Virus record (IMG/VR): IMGVR_UViG_3300028829_003112
Span: 1-41,780 of that record
Source: a virus
Direction: 5' to 3' (one strand)
DNA length: 41,780 nucleotides
Part shown: in pieces, positions 5,701-40,319 of the stretch
Layout of the letters: each line of letters starts with the position of its first letter
Position numbering within the stretch: position 1 is the stretch's first letter
Made by a program: the position numbers and the translations under genes
Notes under the pieces: model-generated
Told to the model about the DNA's origin: nothing
Seen by the model: the letters and a program-made list of their open reading frames with translations, nothing else
The model's database searches: none

Positions 5701-6729
5701 ATGGCAGATAACACAGCCGCACGGTTAGGCCAGATCAATCAATCTGGTGATACCGATGCAGTCTATTTGCGCACGTTTGGCGGCGAAGTCATTACGGCTT
5801 TCGATGTCGCCAACGTCATGCTCCCACGCACCTTCCAGAAGAAGGGCACCGGTAAGTCCGTACAGTTCCCCCGATTGGGCACTGCCTCGGCAGCTTACCA
5901 CACCGTAGGCACTGAGCTTACTGGTAACTCGTACAACGCTGCTGAACTGTTGGTCTCCCCTGACCCGCAGCTCGTGAGCAATTACTTCCTCGATAACTAC
6001 GATGAGGTCATCACTCACTTTGAAGAGCGTCAACCCATTGCTTACGCGATGGCTCAAGAACTGTCTACTATCTGTGACAAGCACGTTATCCACGAAGGCA
6101 TCGCAGGCTCGCGCCTGACTGCTGTTGGTTCCGAGCTACCCACAGGTACTAGCGTCAACGGTAACCTCACGTTCAACGCCAGCAACTCCCTGTTGCTCAC
6201 GACTGAACAGAGCGGTACCGGTGCTTCCACCACTGCTGCGAAAGCTCAGGCTTGGCTCGATGCTCTTCAGAAGTGCGCTCAGCGCATGGACGAACTCAAC
6301 GTTCCCAAGATGGGTCGCTTCGTGGTTGTCCGTCCTCGTGAAGTCTACCCCCTCATTGTTGCAGCTCAGACCTCGGGTCTCCAGCTCATCAACAAGGACA
6401 TTGGCGGCGTAGGCTCCATCTCGGAAGGCACCATTGGCAACGTCCTCGGGTTCGATATCATCAGCTCGAACAACTTGCCGTTGACCGACCTCAGTGCTGA
6501 CACTGGCGTGTACACGTACCACAAAGCCGACTACAGCGCGACCGTTGGTCTCGTTGGTGTCGATCGCTCTATCGCGGTTGCTAACTGGCGCGGTCTCACG
6601 ACCTCCGCTGATTACATCCCCGACAAGCTCGGTACTCTTCTGATCGCGCGTTACATCAAAGGTATTAAGTACCTTCGTCCTGAGGCTCTCATCGAGCTGA
6701 AGCTGGCGACTGGTACTGTTACTGCCTAA
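5701..6729 (+). CDS. Major capsid protein, T7 gp10-like
   Basis: This 342-aa protein matches T7 gp10A in length (345 aa) and composition and would build the icosahedral head with the HK97 fold. Visible features include the N-terminal AVYLRTFGGEVITAFDVANV, which corresponds to the conserved T7-group segment LALKVFGGEVLTAF, the P-domain region around KKGTGKSVQFPRLG, and the C-terminal LLIARYIKGIKYLRPEALIEL. Codon use is rich in frequently used codons compared with neighbours, as expected for the most expressed protein. The ribosome-binding site is weak (GTGAGAAAC). A strong terminator follows 17 bases after the stop. There is no sign of a gp10B-type frameshift extension, because no long open frame continues past the stop. 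Confidence 0.96.
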   Translation: MADNTAARLGQINQSGDTDAVYLRTFGGEVITAFDVANVMLPRTFQKKGTGKSVQFPRLGTASAAYHTVGTELTGNSYNAAELLVSPDPQLVSNYFLDNYDEVITHFEERQPIAYAMAQELSTICDKHVIHEGIAGSRLTAVGSELPTGTSVNGNLTFNASNSLLLTTEQSGTGASTTAAKAQAWLDALQKCAQRMDELNVPKMGRFVVVRPREVYPLIVAAQTSGLQLINKDIGGVGSISEGTIGNVLGFDIISSNNLPLTDLSADTGVYTYHKADYSATVGLVGVDRSIAVANWRGLTTSADYIPDKLGTLLIARYIKGIKYLRPEALIELKLATGTVTA

Positions 6730-6746: not shown

Positions 6747-6802
6747 GGCCCCCTGTACCTCACGAGCCCTAAGTGGCGCTCTAGGTACAGGGGGCCTTTT
6801 TC
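6747..6802 (+). terminator. Strong rho-independent terminator after capsid gene
   Basis: A 14-bp perfect stem (6747-6760 GGCCCCCTGTACCT with 6783-6796 AGGTACAGGGGGCC) is followed directly by five T residues. It sits 17 bases after the capsid stop, the position of T-phi in T7, which terminates most phage RNA polymerase transcripts. Confidence 0.92.
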
Positions 6803-6806
6803 TGTT

Positions 6807-6880
6807 TGCGAAGTGATAGCAGCTGGTAGCTAGCAGGGCTCATAACCCTGAAGTCGGTGGTTCGAGTCCACCCTCCGCAA
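6807..6880 (+). tRNA. tRNA with CAU anticodon, initiator (fMet)-like
   Basis: The cloverleaf reads acceptor TGCGAAG (6807-6813) with CTCCGCA (6873-6879, one A-C mismatch), D stem TAGC/GCTA, anticodon stem CAGGG/CCCTG around loop CTCATAA, and T arm GGTGG-TTCGAGT-CCACC. The anticodon is CAU. Three consecutive G-C pairs at the bottom of the anticodon stem and an A11-U24 pair in the D stem are hallmarks of bacterial initiator tRNA, and the central region is close to that of E. coli tRNA-fMet. Unlike standard initiators, position 1 is U opposite A72 and can pair. The linker before the D stem has three bases in place of two. CCA is not encoded. It lies between two terminators behind the capsid gene. 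Elongator Met or Ile2 identity is the alternative. Confidence 0.85.
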
Positions 6881-6912
6881 CCCCCCTCCCCCTTTCCCTA
6901 AGTCCCCCGACT

Positions 6913-6970
6913 CCCCGTTCCAGGATTATATGCGCCCCTCTTTGTTCAGGCGTCCTGGGACGGGGTTTTT
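6913..6970 (+). terminator. Second rho-independent terminator, after the tRNA
   Basis: Arms 6913-6925 (CCCCGTTCCAGGA) and 6953-6965 (TCCTGGGACGGGG) form a 13-bp stem with one G-U pair, followed by five T residues. Together with the terminator at 6747 it brackets the tRNA gene. Confidence 0.85.
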
Positions 6971-6994
6971 AGGTTCCCCCTTTCAGTGGTGTGT

Positions 6995-7018
6995 GTAGGT
7001 TCGAATCCTACCCAAGGC
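6995..7018 (+). other. tRNA 3'-end-like fragment (T arm plus acceptor half), possible attP core
   Basis: GTAGG-TTCGAAT-CCTAC (6995-7011) is a perfect tRNA T arm and is followed by CCAAGGC, which could be the 3' acceptor half. No matching GCCTTGG acceptor half, D arm or anticodon arm exists upstream, because that space is filled by the terminator at 6913-6970. It is thus a tRNA end without a tRNA. Tyrosine integrases often use host tRNA 3' ends as attachment sites, and the phage encodes such an integrase at 32762, though far away on the map. A decayed phage tRNA is the alternative. Confidence 0.45.
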
Positions 7019-7090
7019 CCGTGCTGGGCTGCGGTAAGTCTCAACAGGCAGAGCTACCACGCTTTTTTATGAACACTCAAGGTCCACCCC

Positions 7091-7519
7091 ATGCCTCACC
7101 CAACAGACCCAACCGATACCTTCTGGGACTACGCGGCTCGCGGACGAGCCTCTGAGTTCCCTAGCTCCCTCGGCCCTTACAACTCGTTCCGCAACTACGT
7201 AGGCCCCCAATCTACACAATGGGTCCTTAAGAACATTACGCGCTACATATGGGGCGTTGACTTCAACAAGCCTGCGTATCGCCACGACTTCCACTACAGC
7301 GTGGGAGGCTCCAAGAGCGATAGGCTCGATGCGGACGCTACGTTCCTCAGGGAACTTAAGGCCGAGATACACAAGACTTACCCTAGCGGCTCAGGCCCTT
7401 GGGCCGCATTCAAACGCCTCGCAGCTCTCAGGGCTGCTCGAGAAGCGTGGGTGATGGTCCGCAAGAGTGGTGCTGCTTTCTATAACTTTACGACACCTAA
7501 GGAGGGACCCTCCGAATGA
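7091..7519 (+). CDS. Phospholipase A2-like protein (tentative)
   Basis: The 142-aa product carries FNKPAYRHDFHYSVGGS with H65-D66-x-x-Y69, which is the HDxxY catalytic signature of secreted and parvoviral phospholipases A2 (His as base, Asp binding calcium). A second aspartate segment, DADATFLREL (D80/D82), lies about 17 residues later, comparable with the spacing in the short viral enzymes. There is no signal peptide, and no disulfide-type cysteines are seen. It starts at ATG 7091 after AAGG and is coupled to the gp11-like gene by an ATGA overlap, so it is read with the tail proteins. A role in membrane passage during DNA entry or in lysis is conceivable. The canonical calcium-loop glycines are not obvious, so the call is provisional. 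Confidence 0.5.
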   Translation: MPHPTDPTDTFWDYAARGRASEFPSSLGPYNSFRNYVGPQSTQWVLKNITRYIWGVDFNKPAYRHDFHYSVGGSKSDRLDADATFLRELKAEIHKTYPSGSGPWAAFKRLAALRAAREAWVMVRKSGAAFYNFTTPKEGPSE

Positions 7520-11554: not shown

Positions 11555-14545
11555 ATGCCCAAGAACTCTGATAACCGCAGAGGCGCTGTGTCCCGAGTAA
11601 TCGACCAGCGCTCCACGTTTCGGTTCGCTCCACAGACTCGCCCCCAAGCTCGACCTAGCGACACGTTCAACCCTAACATTGGGCAACGTGCTGTACGGAG
11701 AGCTAGGGACCTTGAGGGCCTCATAGGCCTCACGACCAACGGCGTACGCGCTGGGGTCGGAGTGTTGGACGATAGGGACGCTAGGGCCGCTGAGCAACAA
11801 GCTCGCGCTACGGCTGCTGACCCTAGCCTCGAGAAACCCGAGGGGACCCCAGGGTTCTTTAACGACGTTCAAGCTCGCCAAGACGCTTGGGACGATGTGT
11901 CCGCTGAGCGTGACGCTGTGCAATACAAAGCAGATCTGGCCCAGCTCGAGAACGCTAACGCGTACCTTGAGGACGGTGAGTTCAACGCCAAGTTCGCTGA
12001 GATCACCAACGAGTTCCTGGCCGGTAAGTCTGAGCGGTACCTCTCTGTGTTCGCCCCTGAGGCGGCTAAGCACGAAGCCGCGATGCGTACTGTGCGTCGA
12101 GCCAAGATCCAGAAGCAAGTCATCACTGAAGCGAAAGACGCTGCGAGCACAGTGTTCCGAGACAGCGTCTCCGGTGCGTTCGCTACAGTCCTTGGCAAGA
12201 CCGGAGAGTTCGAGACAGACCTTAAGCTCCAGCAAGAACTCAGTGAGTCCGAGCCTAGTGACGCAGTAGTAGCTAATGTAGCAGCGGCCCTCAAAAAGGG
12301 TGCAGCAACTATTGTGGCCCAAGGGGGCTCTAAGGCCGAAGCCTCGTCCAACATGATCCAATCTATTGGGCTCCTCGCAGTGCGTACGAAGCAGCCTTGG
12401 TTGCTCGATGCCTTGGATGTCCCTAACAAGGACGACAACGGACTTAAGCTCTCAGATCTCCCGCAGTTCCGAGCTGTTATCGACACGTACCGCGCGCAAG
12501 CTGTGGTAGCTCGTGATAGACTCGAGGACGACCTTGAGCGTGAGGACGAGGAAGCTACTCGTGACGCGATCAACGCAGCTACAGGAGAGTTCAACAACGA
12601 CCTCTTAGACCTCAAGAGAGGGATGAGCAGATTCCTCGATGAAGGACACTCCCCTACTGAAGTAGCCTCCCAGTTCTCTAAGGACATTGAGGGCCTTGAG
12701 AAACGCTTGGACACGTTCCGTCACATGTACGAAGGTGACGTGAACTTCGCGTTCGTAGAGCGGTTCCAAGACAACCTCAACAGTTTGTTCTCTAGGACTA
12801 CAGGTCAGGACACCACGGGTGACCAAGAAGTCTTAGACAAGTCCTTGTACCTTCTCCGCACCAAAGGTCCTGGAGATCCTGATTTCGATGCGTGGTTCGA
12901 CCTGAACCGTCACATGGACGAAGATTACGGACGCATCTCTGAAAAGGTTCGAAAGTTCTTCTCGAATACGTTAGGAGACATAGCGGCCACTAAGGCCGGA
13001 AACGCCTCAGAGCAACAGAAAGCGCATATCGCGAGTCTCAAGGCAGCAGCCGGGTGGTTTAAGAACCGTATGGGAGGCGCGAGCGGAGCTAACGACGGGG
13101 TTCCTGGTTTCCCAGGACTAGACCTAGGTGACGGCGCAAAGACCCCTGAGCAGATTAGCGCAGGGATCATGCACAACCGTGTACTAGAGCTGGTCTCTTT
13201 GGGTGAAGTAAGTCCTGACATGCACGCGGCTCTCGAGACGGAGTACCAACAGATTCTTGAGCCTCTAAAGCAGGAACAAGCTGCTGCGGAAATTCAGGAT
13301 AACTTGGTGAAATCGGGGGCGGAACAAGCTGTACTTGAGAAGGTCGATCAGTTCCACAAGTCCCCGCTACACGCTCAGCTCCGCCGCTCAAAGCAGTACT
13401 CCGATTTCACACCTCAGGAGCAGTCCCAGTACATCCGCAGCATAGTCAACCTACCCGTCACACCTGCTACTCAAATACAAATCCTCAAGAACCTTGATCT
13501 TCCTTATGAAGAGAAGCGGCTAATGGAGGTTGAGTACCAGAAGCAGTTGGCGATAAAGAAACAACAGGATGCCCTCAGGGAGCAACAAGCGCTAGAAGGA
13601 GACGAAACACTGAGTGCCCTCTCCGCTGCGCTTATTGATGACTTCGCGGAGTTTCTCTATAATGAGACTGCGAACCCCATGTTCGGAACCAACGGCGGAA
13701 CTGTAGGAGCCCAAGCGTTCTTTGGCCAGGGCGGGATACAACCTCAAGGAATAAACGAGCTGCGGCCTGAATTTGACAACGCTCCTTTAGAAGCCCTTCA
13801 AGATATCCTGCTCAACCCTTCGGAAGCTAAAGATAAGGGTGGAGCTGCGTTCCTCGGACAAGGAGGACTAAACCAACCCGAGATCTCTCTGGAAGGAGAG
13901 GGTGTAGCTGAAGTACCTAACGAAATGAAGGACGCCTTCAAGACACTACTCAAGGCTTTCGCGAAGGCTCCTGAGGATTGGGAAAAAGCTGGCGCAGCGT
14001 TCCGAGAATCCGCAGCACGTGGCCGAGAACGTAAGACACCTAACCAGGACTTGCTCCCCGAAGCCTTAAACAGGGCTATACAGAGTACATCCAGCGAGTT
14101 AGGCGGAGCCTTAAAGACTCTCCATAAAGCCATTAAGGATGCTCCTGAGGATTGGGAAAAAGCTGGCGCAGCGTTCCGAGAATCTGCGGCACGTGGTCGA
14201 GAACGTTCGGTGCCTAATGAAGACTTGATCCCCGAAGCCTTAGACAAGGCGATAGAAGTCTTAGACAAGGCAGTGCCTAGTGATTTGAGAGAAGCCTTAA
14301 AGACTCTTCGTAAAGCCGTTAAGGATGCTCCTGAGGATTGGGAAAAAGCGGGTACAGCGTTCCGAGAATCCGCAACACGCGGTCGAGCACGTAAACCCTC
14401 TAAGCCAGACTTAATCAAGCAGCTTACTCCCGAAGCCTTAGACAAGGCAATACAAGATACACCGGGCGAGCTACGAGAAGCTCTCGAGGCTCTTCGTGAA
14501 GCTATCAAGACTGCCCCTAAAAACTGGCAGGACGCTAGTGGGTAA
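11555..14545 (+). CDS. Internal core protein, T7 gp15-like, with C-terminal tandem repeats
   Basis: The 996-aa product lies where T7 encodes gp15 (747 aa), a core protein that forms the periplasmic ejection tunnel. It is highly charged and almost entirely predicted helical, with long alanine/glutamate/glutamine runs compatible with helical bundles and no membrane segment. The start ATG 11555 follows GGAGG by ten bases. The extra length compared with T7 lies largely in the C-terminal 200 residues, which hold four related units of about 58-62 aa containing APEDWEKAGAAFRESAARGR (encoded at 13937-14545). Homology to gp15 is inferred mainly from position, size and composition. Confidence 0.85.
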   Translation: MPKNSDNRRGAVSRVIDQRSTFRFAPQTRPQARPSDTFNPNIGQRAVRRARDLEGLIGLTTNGVRAGVGVLDDRDARAAEQQARATAADPSLEKPEGTPGFFNDVQARQDAWDDVSAERDAVQYKADLAQLENANAYLEDGEFNAKFAEITNEFLAGKSERYLSVFAPEAAKHEAAMRTVRRAKIQKQVITEAKDAASTVFRDSVSGAFATVLGKTGEFETDLKLQQELSESEPSDAVVANVAAALKKGAATIVAQGGSKAEASSNMIQSIGLLAVRTKQPWLLDALDVPNKDDNGLKLSDLPQFRAVIDTYRAQAVVARDRLEDDLEREDEEATRDAINAATGEFNNDLLDLKRGMSRFLDEGHSPTEVASQFSKDIEGLEKRLDTFRHMYEGDVNFAFVERFQDNLNSLFSRTTGQDTTGDQEVLDKSLYLLRTKGPGDPDFDAWFDLNRHMDEDYGRISEKVRKFFSNTLGDIAATKAGNASEQQKAHIASLKAAAGWFKNRMGGASGANDGVPGFPGLDLGDGAKTPEQISAGIMHNRVLELVSLGEVSPDMHAALETEYQQILEPLKQEQAAAEIQDNLVKSGAEQAVLEKVDQFHKSPLHAQLRRSKQYSDFTPQEQSQYIRSIVNLPVTPATQIQILKNLDLPYEEKRLMEVEYQKQLAIKKQQDALREQQALEGDETLSALSAALIDDFAEFLYNETANPMFGTNGGTVGAQAFFGQGGIQPQGINELRPEFDNAPLEALQDILLNPSEAKDKGGAAFLGQGGLNQPEISLEGEGVAEVPNEMKDAFKTLLKAFAKAPEDWEKAGAAFRESAARGRERKTPNQDLLPEALNRAIQSTSSELGGALKTLHKAIKDAPEDWEKAGAAFRESAARGRERSVPNEDLIPEALDKAIEVLDKAVPSDLREALKTLRKAVKDAPEDWEKAGTAFRESATRGRARKPSKPDLIKQLTPEALDKAIQDTPGELREALEALREAIKTAPKNWQDASG
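13937..14545 (+). repeat. Four in-frame protein repeats at the end of the gp15-like gene
   Basis: Units whose conserved DNA core starts at 13967, 14141, 14327 and (degenerate) 14513 are spaced by 174, 186 and 186 bases, i.e. 58, 62 and 62 codons. The first three share the APEDWEKAG-AFRESA-RGR core nearly identically at DNA level; the fourth decays to APKNWQDASG at the C-terminus. Consensus units include an EAL-KAI helix, a proline, and the amphipathic DWEKAG helix. Confidence 0.93.
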
Positions 14546-24237: not shown

Positions 24238-24536
24238 CGGCCCTCTTGGTAGGATGCGTGTCGTACACGGACACCGAGAGTGGCCTAGAGATCCGCAGAG
24301 TGGGTCTTAGGTCCTCGGTGGTCATTGAGAGTACCGTGAGTCCACTTGGAGTGACCACGACCACGAACGTGACCGGGGGAGTCCCTGAGTCGGCGTACGA
24401 GGGGGTCATTCGGGAACTGAGGGATGTCCTTGTGGGACCTAAGGTCCGTACGGCGGAGCCGAACGAGGGGCGGAGCCGAACGAGGGGCGGAGCCGAACGA
24501 GGGGCGGAGCCGAACGAGGGGCGGAGCCCCGAGTGA
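24201..24536 (+). CDS. Lipoprotein, possible outer-membrane spanin, with repeat-encoded tail
   Basis: The 111-aa product begins MEQMYRATLGLLAALLVGC: a short basic N-region, a hydrophobic core and the lipobox LVGC, so it should be cleaved and lipidated at C19. ATG 24210 is an equally good start. The mature part is polar and threonine/valine-rich. The last 27 residues are read through four tandem 17-bp DNA repeats, so successive copies are read in successive frames and the tail is arginine/glutamate/glycine-rich. A small lipoprotein near the terminase genes of a T7-like phage suggests an o-spanin (Rz1-like), though it lacks the proline richness of typical Rz1. It overlaps the Lar-like gene by 37 bases. 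Confidence 0.62.
   Translation: MEQMYRATLGLLAALLVGCVSYTDTESGLEIRRVGLRSSVVIESTVSPLGVTTTTNVTGGVPESAYEGVIRELRDVLVGPKVRTAEPNEGRSRTRGGAERGAEPNEGRSPE
24454..24528 (+). repeat. 17-bp tandem repeat, 4.4 copies, inside the lipoprotein gene
   Basis: Units CGGAGCCGAACGAGGGG occur at 24454, 24471, 24488 and 24505, all identical, followed by a partial CGGAGCC at 24522. Because 17 is not a multiple of three, any gain or loss of one unit shifts the frame of the downstream codons and moves the stop. Confidence 0.97.
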
Positions 24537-28592: not shown

Positions 28593-28700
28593 GCGCTCGT
28601 ACCCTAGGCCCTCCGCGAGCCTGCTTCAAGGCCCATTCCGAGATTTAATTCCACGGTCTTTCCGTGCCCTTTTCCGCGTGCCTCCCTGGCCACCGCTCCT

Positions 28701-28740
28701 GCCCGCTCCCGCCCGCTCCCACCCGCTCCCGCCCGCTCCC
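28701..28740 (+). repeat. 10-bp tandem repeat, four copies
   Basis: GCCCGCTCCC is repeated at 28701, 28711, 28721 (first base A) and 28731, in a strongly pyrimidine-rich plus strand. A degenerate copy precedes it at about 28692. Confidence 0.93.
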
Positions 28741-28760
28741 ACACACCCGCACGCGCCCCC

Positions 28761-28836
28761 TCGTTAGTCGTTGCGCTTTAGGAGCCCTTCGTTAGTCGTT
28801 GCGCTTTAGGAGCCCCTCGTTAGTCGTTGCTTTTTT
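28761..28836 (+). repeat. 28-bp tandem repeat, two and a half copies, ending in a T-run
   Basis: Units beginning TCGTTAGTCGTTGC start at 28761, 28789 and 28817. The first two are full 28-bp copies differing at one base; the third stops after 14 bases and runs into TTTTTT (28831-28836). With the 10-bp repeats just upstream, the 28507-28905 spacer of about 400 bases contains no gene. Confidence 0.93.
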
Positions 28837-28905
28837 CACCCACCCACAACCCCAAACCCGCCTAACCTTAGGCACACACCCAAAACCCAAAGGACCCCCC
28901 AAGCC

Positions 28906-32429: not shown

Positions 32430-32754
32430 CGAGCTGGCTGCACCGGATGGTTATGCGGGGCATGGTGCCAAAGAACAATTTGCGATGTGCCAATCAATTG
32501 GCTGGCGACAAGCATTCCCTCCAGAAGAATGGACTCGATCCTTTATTCTCCCATGCAGACATTGTGGTTACACAGGCAAAAAGATCTTTATGATGGTTGA
32601 CCCCAATCGCACAGGAATACTTTGCATGTGCAAATACTGCGGCACTGAGAATGGCCCAAGGGCGCGCATTGGGTTCCTTCTCAACGAGATAAACGGGAAC
32701 GAGGAACGGGATCTTGCTCGATTCCATAACAACCGGATATCAGAACAGGAGTAA
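32419..32754 (+). CDS. Zinc-ribbon protein of distinct codon use
   Basis: The 111-aa product starts at ATG 32419, eight bases after GGAGG. It contains CRHCGYTGKKIFMM and, about 20 residues later, CMCKYCGTENGP, giving a four-cysteine zinc ribbon, with a helical C-terminal tail (NGNEERDLARFHNNRISEQE). Codon usage (many A/T third positions, few of the CCT/GAC-type codons seen elsewhere) differs from neighbours and suggests recent acquisition. It lies directly before the integrase gene. A DNA-binding or recombination-directionality role is conceivable, but the sequence does not identify one. Confidence 0.68.
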   Translation: MSDSELAAPDGYAGHGAKEQFAMCQSIGWRQAFPPEEWTRSFILPCRHCGYTGKKIFMMVDPNRTGILCMCKYCGTENGPRARIGFLLNEINGNEERDLARFHNNRISEQE

Positions 32755-32761
32755 CCCCCAC

Positions 32762-33796
32762 ATGAAAACCAAGAAACCCCCACTCTCAGTGTACCTGCGC
32801 GGGTCCACATACTGGGGATCTTTCACTATCAACGGCACCAAAACACAGGTGTCCCTGAAAACAACGGACAAACGCACGGCCCAGCGGACCCTAGCGGCCC
32901 TAAAGGACAAAGCGCTCGCTGAGGCTCTCCTAGGGGTTCCTAATGAACCTAAGAGTACCTCTGAGGCCCCTAAGATGACCCTGGCCCAAGCACGAGACCG
33001 TATGTACTCCGAGGTGTGGTCCTCGAACCGCACAGGTCTCAAGTCTAAGCGAAACTTCGAGTGCGTGATGTACAATGCGTTCACGCCAGACACACTCATC
33101 GCGGACATCACGAGCGCTAAGATGGTTACGGCTCGACAAGTCCTCACTACGGACACTCGAGGTCCTAGCACAGTGAACAGGTTGTTCGCTGCGTTCAAGA
33201 CTGTGCTTAATAGGGCACACAAGGTCTGGGAGGTAATAGACAAAGTGCCTCGTATCGAGATGTCTCGGGAACCCGAAGGTCGCCAACGGTTCTTTAGCGC
33301 TGAGGAGGAGCGAGACCTGCTAAGGCACCTAAACGACCACGATGTCCACGCAGCGCTTCTGTGCGCGGTAATGATCGACACAGGGCTCCGGGTCTCCGAG
33401 GCCCTTGGGATAGGCCTAGGGACCTCTGTGGACCTGGACGCTCGCACTGTGACTGTGTCTGCACGGACTGCGAAGTCCAAGAAGTCTCGGACTATCCCTA
33501 TGACCCAGCGAGTGTTCGCGATACTCAGCCAAGACCCTGAGCTAGGGTTGCGGTTGTACGAGTCGAAACTTCGAGGAGCGTGGAAAGGCGCAAGGGACGC
33601 TATGGGCTTAGGGGATGACCTTGAGTTCGTGCCTCACGCACTGAGACACACGTTCTGCTCGCGCTTGGTGCAACGGAACGTGAACCTAGCGGTCGTGCAG
33701 AAGCTCGCAGGGCACGCGGACATTAGTACTACGATGCGGTACGTGCATTTACAGGATGAGGACTTAAGGATGGCTATAAAGGAGCTTGAGCTATAA
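32762..33796 (+). CDS. int: Tyrosine-family integrase
   Basis: A 344-aa site-specific recombinase starts at ATG 32762, nine bases after AGGAG; upstream in-frame starts lie inside the preceding gene. It has an N-terminal arm-binding region (SVYLRGSTYWGSFTINGTKT), a core-binding helical domain (about residues 75-165), and a complete catalytic set: R210 in TGLRVSEALG, H292 and R295 in HALRHTF, H318 in LAGHADISTT and nucleophile Y327 in MRYVHL. All six positions expected for activity (including a lysine in AKSKKSRTIPM) are present. No tRNA-like attachment site lies next to the gene; the only tRNA-end-like sequence is at 6995. The next gene starts on its stop codon. Confidence 0.95.
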   Translation: MKTKKPPLSVYLRGSTYWGSFTINGTKTQVSLKTTDKRTAQRTLAALKDKALAEALLGVPNEPKSTSEAPKMTLAQARDRMYSEVWSSNRTGLKSKRNFECVMYNAFTPDTLIADITSAKMVTARQVLTTDTRGPSTVNRLFAAFKTVLNRAHKVWEVIDKVPRIEMSREPEGRQRFFSAEEERDLLRHLNDHDVHAALLCAVMIDTGLRVSEALGIGLGTSVDLDARTVTVSARTAKSKKSRTIPMTQRVFAILSQDPELGLRLYESKLRGAWKGARDAMGLGDDLEFVPHALRHTFCSRLVQRNVNLAVVQKLAGHADISTTMRYVHLQDEDLRMAIKELEL

Positions 33797-37728: not shown

Positions 37729-38322
37729 ATGATTACACCAATTGGCACCGCCCTGTGGGCACACCTCGATGAGATTAAAGTCTCTGATTACAACGCTGAC
37801 AAGTACGAGATCTCCTTGGTCCTTAACGAACAGGACGCCGCGACGTTACGCGGACAAATGGAGCCGAGTCTCGAGGAAGCGTTCAAGACCCTTGCAAGCA
37901 TGGGTAAAGAAGGTGGCGACATCTCCAAGATTCGCGCCAAGGTACACCAGTACGGACGCCCGCACCTGGACAAGGACGGACAAGACTCTGGGGCTGTACG
38001 GTTCACGTTCAAGACCAAGATCCAGCCTACGTTGATCGACGCAGGTCGCAACCCTATCCCGATCTCCACTAAGATCGGTAACGGCTCTCAGATCCGTCTG
38101 AAGCTCGGCACAGGCAAACGTCCTTGGGGACCCACTGGCGGCAAGTACGGCGCTAGCTTCTATCCGAACATCGTTCAGATCACTAAGTTGGTTGAAGGGT
38201 TCGGAGACACCTCAGAGTTCGATGATGTCGAAGGAGGGTTCGAGTTCACGCCAGGGGCTGGGGAGTTCGCGGACGCACCTGCTGCCTCTGAGTCCCCCAG
38301 CAACGGTACTGGGGACTACTAA
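37729..38322 (+). CDS. Single-stranded DNA-binding protein, T7 gp2.5-like
   Basis: The 197-aa product matches the T7 gp2.5 group in place and plan: a basic beta-rich OB-fold core (KYEISLVLNEQDAATLRGQM, FTFKTKIQPTLIDAGRNPIP, GNGSQIRLKLGTGKRPW) and a disordered acidic C-terminal tail (from about residue 160) that ends in an aromatic residue, DY (T7: DEDF). In T7 that tail contacts DNA polymerase and helicase. It starts at ATG 37729 with AAGGAACC upstream. Its stop TAA overlaps the presumed ATC start of the endonuclease/primase frame. Confidence 0.92.
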   Translation: MITPIGTALWAHLDEIKVSDYNADKYEISLVLNEQDAATLRGQMEPSLEEAFKTLASMGKEGGDISKIRAKVHQYGRPHLDKDGQDSGAVRFTFKTKIQPTLIDAGRNPIPISTKIGNGSQIRLKLGTGKRPWGPTGGKYGASFYPNIVQITKLVEGFGDTSEFDDVEGGFEFTPGAGEFADAPAASESPSNGTGDY

Positions 38323-40319
38323 TCCGCAGATACCACACCTACTCCGCCTCACGCCCTACCGGTCGCTATCGGTCAGGGTTTGAGGCGGAGATCGCAGCAG
38401 AACTAGATGTTGCGGGGATCAAGTACGAGTACGAGACTCGCAAGATAAAGTACGAGATTCCAGCCAAGAGCGCTACGTACACCCCAGACTTTATACTTCC
38501 TAACGGTATCATCGTGGAAGCTAAGGGTCGCTGGGACGTAGCGGATCGACGCAAACACAAGCTCATCCAGGAGCAGCAACCGGACCTAGACATTCGGTTC
38601 GTGTTTCAAAGGGCTAACTCAAAGATCCGAAAGGGGTCCAAGACTAGCTATGCAAGGTACGCTGAGAAGCTAGGGATACCTTGGGCTCAAGGACGGATAC
38701 CTAAGGAGTGGCTGCACTGTACGTCCTCTGACGGGTATCACGAGTACTCTGACGGACACGGGTATTGCTTCTCGTGTGAAGCGTACGACCACGGGGACAA
38801 GGACAACGGAGAACCCAGCGACTCTCTAGGCACCCTCCGTGTCAACCCCAGCGCACCGCTACGTCACCGAGGCTCGTACCAGCGCTTACTCAAACGCAGG
38901 CTTGATGAAACCACGTGCAAGAAGTTCGAGTACAAGATCACCGAGGATGGACTCCACGCCTCTCCGTACTACCGAGACGGAGTCCTCGTGGCAGTACACT
39001 ACCGTAACGCTTCCAAAAGTTTCTGGTGGGACGGCGACTCGAGTAACGTCGAGTTGTTCGGACAACACCTGTGGCCGAGTACTGGGCGCAACGTCATTGT
39101 CACGGAAGGGGAGCTGGATTGTCTCTCGTACGCCCAGGCGCAACGGCTTAAGTGGCCTGTGGTCTCGGTACCTAGCGGAGCACAAAGTGCCCTCAAAGCA
39201 GTAAAGCGGAACCTTGAGTGGCTCAGCGGGTACACCGAGATCGTCATTGCGTTCGACGCAGACGAGCCTGGACGCAAAGCTGCTGAGGAAGTCGCAGCTA
39301 TCCTCGAGCCTGGAAAGGCCAAGATAGTCTCGTGGCCTACAGGCATGAAAGATGCGTCCGATGTCCTCACTAAAGGCGGAGGCGAGGACCAACTCCGCAA
39401 GCTCATGTGGGACGCCCCTGTGTGGCGACCTGACGGCATCGTGGGTGGCGAGGACCTTTGGGGTCACGTCGAAGAGTTCTGGGCTCGCAAGCCCTCTGAG
39501 GAGACTACACCGTGGCCTGGACTCACTAAGCTCACGTTCGGTCTAAGACCTAAGGAGGTGTGGACTTGGACCGCTGGCACAGGAGTAGGGAAATCCACTG
39601 CTGTACACGAGGTTATGTTCCATAACTTGAACGAGAACCCTGAGGCCAAATGGGGCGTTGTGGCCCTTGAGGAATCCACAGGCCAAAGTGTCATTCGTAC
39701 ACTAAGCATGGCACACAACAGGCTCCTTCACCTGGATCGAGACGGCATGGACATCAACGATGTACGCGCTGCGTTCGACAAGTACGTAAAGGACCGAGTG
39801 GTTTTCTACGACCACTGGGGCGCTACGGACTCAGGGGACCTGCTAGGCAAAGTGCGGTACATGGCTGCTGCCCTAGGTGTCACGTACGTCCTGTTCGACC
39901 ACGTGTCCATCGCTGTGACGGACGCCGAGGATGAGCGCCGAGAGATCGACTCCCTGATGACCAAGCTCCGCACGATCTGCGAGAACACTGGGGTCGGTGT
40001 GCATTGCGTGTGTCACCTGAAGCGAGTGAACAGCCAGAGCGGAAAAGGCCACGAGGACGGACAACAAGTGAGACTAGGACACCTTCGAGGTTCTGGGTCT
40101 ATTGCCCAGATCTCGGACACGGTCTTGGCACTCGAGCGGGACCTACAAGATGGCTTGGACTTCACCAAGGTCCGAGTCCTCAAGTGTAGGTTCACCGGAA
40201 AGACTGGGTTGGCCACGAGGCTCCAGTACAACGAAGACACAGGGAGGTTAACGGACGCTGGGCTTGAAGATGAGCTAGCGGGGTTCGGAGATCTTCCTCC
40301 AAAAAGTGAGGACTATTGA
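38322..40319 (+). CDS. Endonuclease I fused to primase/helicase (T7 gp3-gp4 fusion), non-ATG start
   Basis: One open frame of 665 codons joins two T7 genes. Residues 1-130 are endonuclease I, the Holliday-junction resolvase, with all four catalytic residues: E21 in YRSGFEAEI, D56 in YTPDFILPNG, E66 and K68 in VEAKG (T7: E20, D55, E65, K67). It runs from IPKEWL straight into the primase zinc domain (HCTSSDGYHEYSDGHGYCFSC), TOPRIM TEGELDC and FDADEPGRKA, and the helicase with Walker A GTGVGKST at residues 419-426 and a C-terminal acidic tail ending SEDY. The frame is open from 38292 and has no ATG, GTG or TTG before 38514, which is inside the endonuclease. ATC 38322, overlapping the SSB stop and six bases after TGGGGA, is the best start candidate. 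The first zinc-ligand CxxC has only one cysteine. Confidence 0.88.
   Translation: MRRYHTYSASRPTGRYRSGFEAEIAAELDVAGIKYEYETRKIKYEIPAKSATYTPDFILPNGIIVEAKGRWDVADRRKHKLIQEQQPDLDIRFVFQRANSKIRKGSKTSYARYAEKLGIPWAQGRIPKEWLHCTSSDGYHEYSDGHGYCFSCEAYDHGDKDNGEPSDSLGTLRVNPSAPLRHRGSYQRLLKRRLDETTCKKFEYKITEDGLHASPYYRDGVLVAVHYRNASKSFWWDGDSSNVELFGQHLWPSTGRNVIVTEGELDCLSYAQAQRLKWPVVSVPSGAQSALKAVKRNLEWLSGYTEIVIAFDADEPGRKAAEEVAAILEPGKAKIVSWPTGMKDASDVLTKGGGEDQLRKLMWDAPVWRPDGIVGGEDLWGHVEEFWARKPSEETTPWPGLTKLTFGLRPKEVWTWTAGTGVGKSTAVHEVMFHNLNENPEAKWGVVALEESTGQSVIRTLSMAHNRLLHLDRDGMDINDVRAAFDKYVKDRVVFYDHWGATDSGDLLGKVRYMAAALGVTYVLFDHVSIAVTDAEDERREIDSLMTKLRTICENTGVGVHCVCHLKRVNSQSGKGHEDGQQVRLGHLRGSGSIAQISDTVLALERDLQDGLDFTKVRVLKCRFTGKTGLATRLQYNEDTGRLTDAGLEDELAGFGDLPPKSEDY

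Follow-up and report, generated by a model that had tools for sequence, protein, structure and literature searches.

Bacterial initiator tRNA is excluded from elongation by its unpaired 1:72 end, which is its hallmark, and the same mismatch is the main determinant of formylation. Behind its capsid gene, a phage carries a tRNA(CAU) gene that combines features of an initiator with a closed 1:72 end. What kind of tRNA does this gene encode, does the combination occur elsewhere, and what could a phage gain from it?

The tRNA gene and its surroundings

The window, by which we mean the whole stretch of DNA analysed, is a 41,780-base virus record. The 144 bases at its start are repeated exactly at its end, so the record represents a complete genome, about 41.6 kb long. 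By gene content, the carrier is a small temperate T7-like phage: it encodes T7-type portal, scaffold, capsid, tail tube, nozzle and terminase proteins (Pfam, PHROG) and also a single-subunit RNA polymerase, a tyrosine integrase, a primase-helicase and a family A DNA polymerase. Other temperate T7-like phages have a tRNA or T arm beside the integrase gene; next to the integrase gene of the window (32714-33796), a pattern script found no recognisable tRNA or T arm. The genome also contains repeats, namely short tandem arrays with units of 17 (~5 copies), 10 and 28 bases in the terminase-to-early-gene region (24452-24536 and 28693-28840) and a 147-base repeat present three times inside the internal virion protein gene (13934-14440).

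ARAGORN, applied to the whole window, reports a single tRNA with a CAU anticodon (6806-6883, plus strand), in agreement with the initial annotation, and the Rfam tRNA model RF00005 matches 6808-6879 with 44.1 bits (cut-off 29; E = 2.8e-6). The tRNA gene is real, and its body spans 6807-6880 when counted to A73. The features of the locus are collected in Table 1.

Table 1. Coordinates of the tRNA, its parts and neighbouring or related features in the window
Feature	Position	Strand	Evidence
Major capsid protein gene (Gp10A-like), upstream of tRNA	5701..6729	+	Pfam PF21703, PHROG 267
Terminator-like hairpin behind capsid gene, 14-bp perfect arms (6747-6760/6783-6796), then TTTTT	6747..6801	+	Inverted repeat search, terminator scan
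tRNA(CAU) assigned to the initiator class, positions 1-73	6807..6880	+	ARAGORN, Rfam, class profiles
Acceptor strands TGCGAAG/CTCCGCA	6807-6813/6873-6879
Acceptor mismatch A5.C68	6811/6875
Linker before D stem, UGA (three bases)	6814-6816
D stem UAGC/GCUA	6817-6820/6829-6832
Anticodon stem CAGGG/CCCUG	6834-6838/6846-6850
Three G-C pairs 29:41, 30:40, 31:39 (GGG/CCC)	6836-6838/6846-6848
Anticodon CAU	6841..6843	+	ARAGORN, sequence reading
Discriminator A73	6880
Second terminator-like hairpin, past tRNA, 13-nt arms (6913-6925/6953-6965), then TTTTT	6913..6970	+	Inverted repeat search, terminator scan
Isolated T-arm-like sequence GTAGG TTCGAAT CCTAC, then CCAAGGC, rest of tRNA absent	6995..7011	+	Pattern script; Rfam tRNA 14.4 bits, sub-threshold
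Endonuclease I domain fused to primase-helicase, one ORF	38322-40319

The tRNA begins 77 bases behind the capsid stop codon and is flanked by both terminator hairpins. A scan for promoters of the sigma-70 type detected none between the first terminator and the tRNA. The isolated T arm, 115 bases downstream of the tRNA, may be a remnant of a second tRNA or possibly a (divergent) attachment site; a 24-mer of it that includes the acceptor strand has no exact match in GTDB genomes. A permuted or split tRNA assembled from this T arm and the hairpin following it was rejected on reading, as D arm and acceptor partner are missing, and region 6966-7068 folds no better than shuffled sequences. Further downstream, 7091-7519 encodes a 142-amino-acid protein with a conserved YRHDxHY motif, for which no match was found in Pfam, PHROG or annotated phages.

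The closest relative found is a 4.8-kb contig (L129), with 61% identity in the capsid protein, 42% in the product of the next gene (the syntenic homologue of the 142-amino-acid protein) and a terminator-like hairpin as well; a second scan with a capsid profile revealed no better one. Its syntenic gap behind the capsid gene contains no tRNA. In a set of 87 T7-like capsid loci, a tRNA lies close to the capsid gene in five, in no case with a CAU anticodon. In the temperate T7-like phages LUZ100 and RHEph21, a tRNA-Asn likewise lies in the gap adjoining the capsid gene, in LUZ100 between terminators, which marks the capsid region as a place where such phages carry tRNAs. Both differ from the tRNA of the window in being specific for Asn and located upstream rather than downstream of the capsid gene.

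Class of the tRNA and start codon usage

Reading of the sequence bore out the structural description given initially, that is, three G-C pairs in the anticodon stem, A11-U24, U1-A72 and a three-base linker before the D stem. That description contained neither the acceptor mismatch A5.C68 nor two further features, the unencoded CCA and a U10-A25 pair. The anticodon loop (CUCAUAA) is canonical, the T stem reads GGUGG/CCACC, and CCA is not encoded, the 3′ end reading ACCC. Because the mismatch at 1:72 that is standard for tRNA-fMet is missing, we refer to the tRNA as an initiator-class variant. After the linker gained one base, a U10-A25 pair closes the shifted D stem and restores its four pairs. 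None of the sequences compared has U-A here: the pair is always G-C or G-U in the 95 bacterial initiators, and in the 100 phage tRNAs U.C and U.U occur besides these two. Positions required for the tertiary fold (U8, A14, G15-C48, G18G19, U33, U54U55C56, A58) are intact by reading. With regard to decay into a pseudogene, the sequence shows one acceptor mismatch and a compensated shift of the D stem, with everything else intact. The cloverleaf has an energy of –22.3 kcal/mol, and all 127 bacterial initiators compared are stronger; the minimum-energy fold differs from the cloverleaf, and its z score of –0.99 is uninformative as evidence.

For class assignment, we built profiles from one half of each of three sets of fetched bacterial loci (102 initiators, 24 elongator tRNA-Met, 15 tRNA-Ile2) and scored the other half. 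The phage tRNA scores 52.5 bits with the initiator profile, compared with 31.3 bits for elongator tRNA-Met and 24.2 bits for tRNA-Ile2. All 51 held-out bacterial initiators score best as initiators, with margins of 38 to 56 bits (minimum +37.7), and the elongator and Ile2 controls prefer the non-initiator profiles by 28 to 57 bits. BLAST searches of 12 whole bacterial genomes gave one to four matches each, and all matches that could be classed, by comparison with loci already fetched, are initiator genes. The known determinants of initiator tRNA (PMC9976931, PMC11231383) include the minor ones for formylation, G2-C71, C3-G70, G4-C69, A73 and A11-U24, all of which are present. An elongator-type D arm (AGCUCAG...AGAGC) is absent and the GGG/CCC stem present; the pairs C4-G69/C5-G68 of tRNA-Ile2 are replaced by G4-C69 and A5.C68. 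Based on these profiles and positions, the tRNA is clearly assigned to the initiator class, as initially proposed, although its margin of +21 bits over the other classes lies below that of every bacterial initiator tested.

Compared with the E. coli-type tRNA-fMet, the phage tRNA shares the CAU anticodon and its loop, the GGG/CCC stem, A11-U24, the three acceptor pairs 2:71 to 4:69 and A73. It differs in U1-A72 instead of C1.A72, in A5.C68, in the three-base linker with U10-A25, in the unencoded CCA and in its weaker cloverleaf. As judged from sequence, the identity features needed by MetRS, the formylase and the ribosomal P site are retained, except for the 1:72 mismatch. The identical U1-A72 end exists in a laboratory mutant of E. 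coli tRNA-fMet (C1 to U1), which, in contrast to the phage tRNA, was engineered. This mutant reportedly goes back to Seong and RajBhandary in 1987 (cited in PMC9976931), whose title is said to credit a single base change with making the initiator active as an elongator in vitro.

The initial annotation had noted many non-ATG starts in this genome and suggested a link between them and the altered initiator. Shine-Dalgarno sites support the GTG or TTG starts of the portal and both polymerase genes, with strong sites at the TTG of the RNA polymerase and the GTG codons of the portal gene and a fibre gene. In the integrase and several other genes, a better ATG start lies inside. Overall, the choice of start codons does not clearly stand out: by reading, non-ATG codons open about 8 of 28 genes, compared with 7 of 55 annotated in LUZ100, which is not decisive. 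The ATC start described for the resolvase/primase, that is, the endonuclease I-primase ORF, is plausible and the only plausible one as far as the sequence indicates. From the stop codon that precedes the ORF (38289) up to position 38514 there is no ATG, GTG or TTG, and the ATC at 38322 overlaps the TAA of the SSB gene (TAATC), where LUZ100 has an overlapping ATG (TGATG). No mechanism connects the tRNA with this codon: its CAU anticodon is unchanged and would mispair at the third base, for which an altered acceptor end would be of no help. The suggested link is thus left unsupported: anticodon loop and stem are canonical, the counts are indecisive, and the capsid gene of the closest relative begins with GTG in the absence of the tRNA.

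Closed 1:72 ends in phages and bacteria

As a class, phage tRNAs with initiator features are not rare, contrary to the initial annotation: more than 120 IMG/VR contigs match one strict initiator pattern. With a limit of E = 0.1, matches were also obtained in 269 annotated phage records, though these make up only ~0.5% of 50,697 records. Shigella phages, in comparison, mostly avoid tRNA-fMet (PMC10264068); the phage initiator tRNAs qualify the statement that phages avoid it, which was derived from phages of one host.

We then applied one identical pattern, reaching from the D loop to the anticodon stem, to IMG/VR and GTDB genomes. A U-A pair at 1:72 occurs in 15 of the 100 distinct viral sequences but in only 1 of the 95 from bacteria (Fisher p = 3e-4), in collections that are sampled differently and with viral contigs that are not independent. 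The contrast persists when sequences within four edits are collapsed (p = 0.036) and loses significance at coarser clustering, which leaves just 13 clusters of bacterial sequences. In an enlarged search for complete initiators with either U1...A72 or C1...A72, 41 viral contigs of IMG/VR have U1-A72 and 97 have C1.A72, some of the latter probably being host copies at prophage ends. The 41 contigs represent 21 sequence clusters with GC contents of 0.30-0.68, and 33 of these viral stretches contain no other tRNA, like the window. The tRNA of the window itself misses the strict pattern owing to its D arm and therefore counts as a further case. Among bacterial genomes, drawn evenly within three phyla, only 3 of 695 have U1-A72: none of 398 in the phylum of a Marinobacterium, 1 of 148, namely the seed genome, in that of a Flavobacteriales MAG, and 2 of 149 in that of a Streptomyces. 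As a control, C1.A72 was recovered from 31 of 60 genomes of the Marinobacterium-phylum set. Two other initiator features are widely kept in the phage clusters, with A-U at 11-24 in 96 of 96, although the search pattern left position 11 free, and G-C at 2:71 in 92%.

Cultured phages of unrelated groups carry U1-A72 as well (CBB, XbC2, GAP32, RcXuper). The initiator-like tRNA-Met of Mimasvirus jumbo phages (Pectobacterium CBB, Xanthomonas XbC2, Cronobacter GAP32) has ~80-84% identity to the tRNA of the window over positions 1-73, with U1-A72 in common, but differs in U73, in A-U at 29:41 and in the presence of other tRNA genes alongside. CBB and XbC2, unlike the phage of the window, have a second tRNA-Met close by. 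In the cultured phages L341-L347 (CBB, XbC2, GAP32, Elanor, RcXuper, phi4:1), pair 29:41 is A-U or U-A and not G-C, and the initiator-like copy of Xanthomonas phage Elanor is unannotated. Another viral family of initiator-type tRNAs (L007, L076, L019, L091), with the acceptor strands TTCAGGG (TTCAAGG in L019) and CCCTGCA, combines a paired U1-A72 with a mismatched U2.C71 and with U73 or C73 in place of A73; its determinants of formylation and charging are thus broken, whereas its anticodon arm is kept.

Taken together, U1-A72 initiators recur in phages and are nearly absent from bacteria, which was unexpected. The tRNA class is already known; the closed end is a variant of it that recurs in phages, of which we found no description in the literature searched.

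Possible function and origin

We lean towards the view that the gene encodes a phage-borne initiator-class tRNA-Met, adapted to the phage, that would supply or replace the host initiator late in infection and possibly serve elongation too. Late transcription would reach it by reading through the terminator that follows the capsid gene; RNase P and 3′ nucleases of the host would trim the transcript, and the host would add CCA. MetRS could charge it via CAU and A73. Formylation is expected to be at least partial, since G2-C71, C3-G70, G4-C69 and A11-U24 are kept and the U1-A72 pair is weak. The three G-C pairs would direct it to the P site, where it may supplement or replace the host initiator, and the U1-A72 closure probably permits some binding of EF-Tu, so that one gene might serve initiation and, weakly, elongation. 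Points against this view are A5.C68 with the weak cloverleaf, the low class margin, the gap without a tRNA in the closest relative and the negative scan for sigma-70-type promoters in front of the gene.

The main rival is decay: a host initiator gene, captured through imprecise excision or recombination, is losing its function in the absence of selection, with U1-A72, A5.C68 and the inserted linker base as its first lesions. The acceptor mismatch and the weak cloverleaf would agree with this, as would the absence of the gene from the nearest relative, the T-arm fragment of another tRNA nearby and the presence of an integrase. Yet the linker shift is compensated by U10-A25 and a shorter D loop, identity and tertiary positions beyond the acceptor end are all intact, and U1-A72 recurs in other phage initiators, whereas random decay should yield other changes just as readily. 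We regard decay as rather unlikely. The integrase and the use of tRNA pieces for integration, frequent among temperate T7-like phages (PMC8776855, PMC10134795), could also point to the tRNA as (part of) the phage attachment site. Known sites, however, adjoin the integrase gene, whereas here a whole tRNA lies at 6.8 kb, ~15 kb from it round the circle; no T arm adjoins the integrase gene, and the exact 24-mer of the downstream T arm occurs in no GTDB genome. Moreover, LUZ100 and RHEph21 keep their tRNA-Asn in the capsid region, that of LUZ100 being separate from its integrase tRNA-Leu. An integration relic is thus very improbable.

A spare initiator could also resist host toxins aimed at initiator tRNA. 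The acetyltransferase AtaT depends on an uninterrupted series of G-C pairs in the lower part of the acceptor stem of tRNA-fMet (PMC7595197), and with A5.C68 and A6-U67 the run 4-69, 5-68, 6-67 is broken, which would make the phage tRNA a poor substrate for enzymes of this type. Of the 96 phage clusters, 49 have retained GGG/CCC at positions 4-6, compared with 48 of 63 bacterial clusters (p = 0.0016), and phage tRNAs are known to counter tRNA-cutting toxins (PMC10264068). Nevertheless, this explanation appears improbable: relaxed constraint accounts equally well for the acceptor changes, the anticodon arm, at which VapC acts, has a canonical loop and stem, and the Shigella phages of PMC10264068 mostly avoid tRNA-fMet. 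Finally, the CAU anticodon and a 1:72 end paired as in elongators would suit an elongator tRNA-Met or a lysidine-modified tRNA-Ile2. The class scores, the GGG/CCC stem, A11-U24 in an initiator-type D stem and, for Ile2, G4-C69 in place of the typical C4-G69/C5-G68 make this barely credible.

The initiator-class reading of this single gene invites a wider and more tentative one, which we consider rather unlikely: that phages repeatedly turn captured initiator tRNAs into dual-use Met tRNAs by closing 1:72 to U1-A72, a change that bacteria avoid. If this were true, a single phage gene would both start proteins and feed methionine into elongation. Natural initiator-type tRNAs with a paired end would be suitable material for probing how sharply initiation and elongation are kept apart, and whether phages benefit from blurring the boundary.
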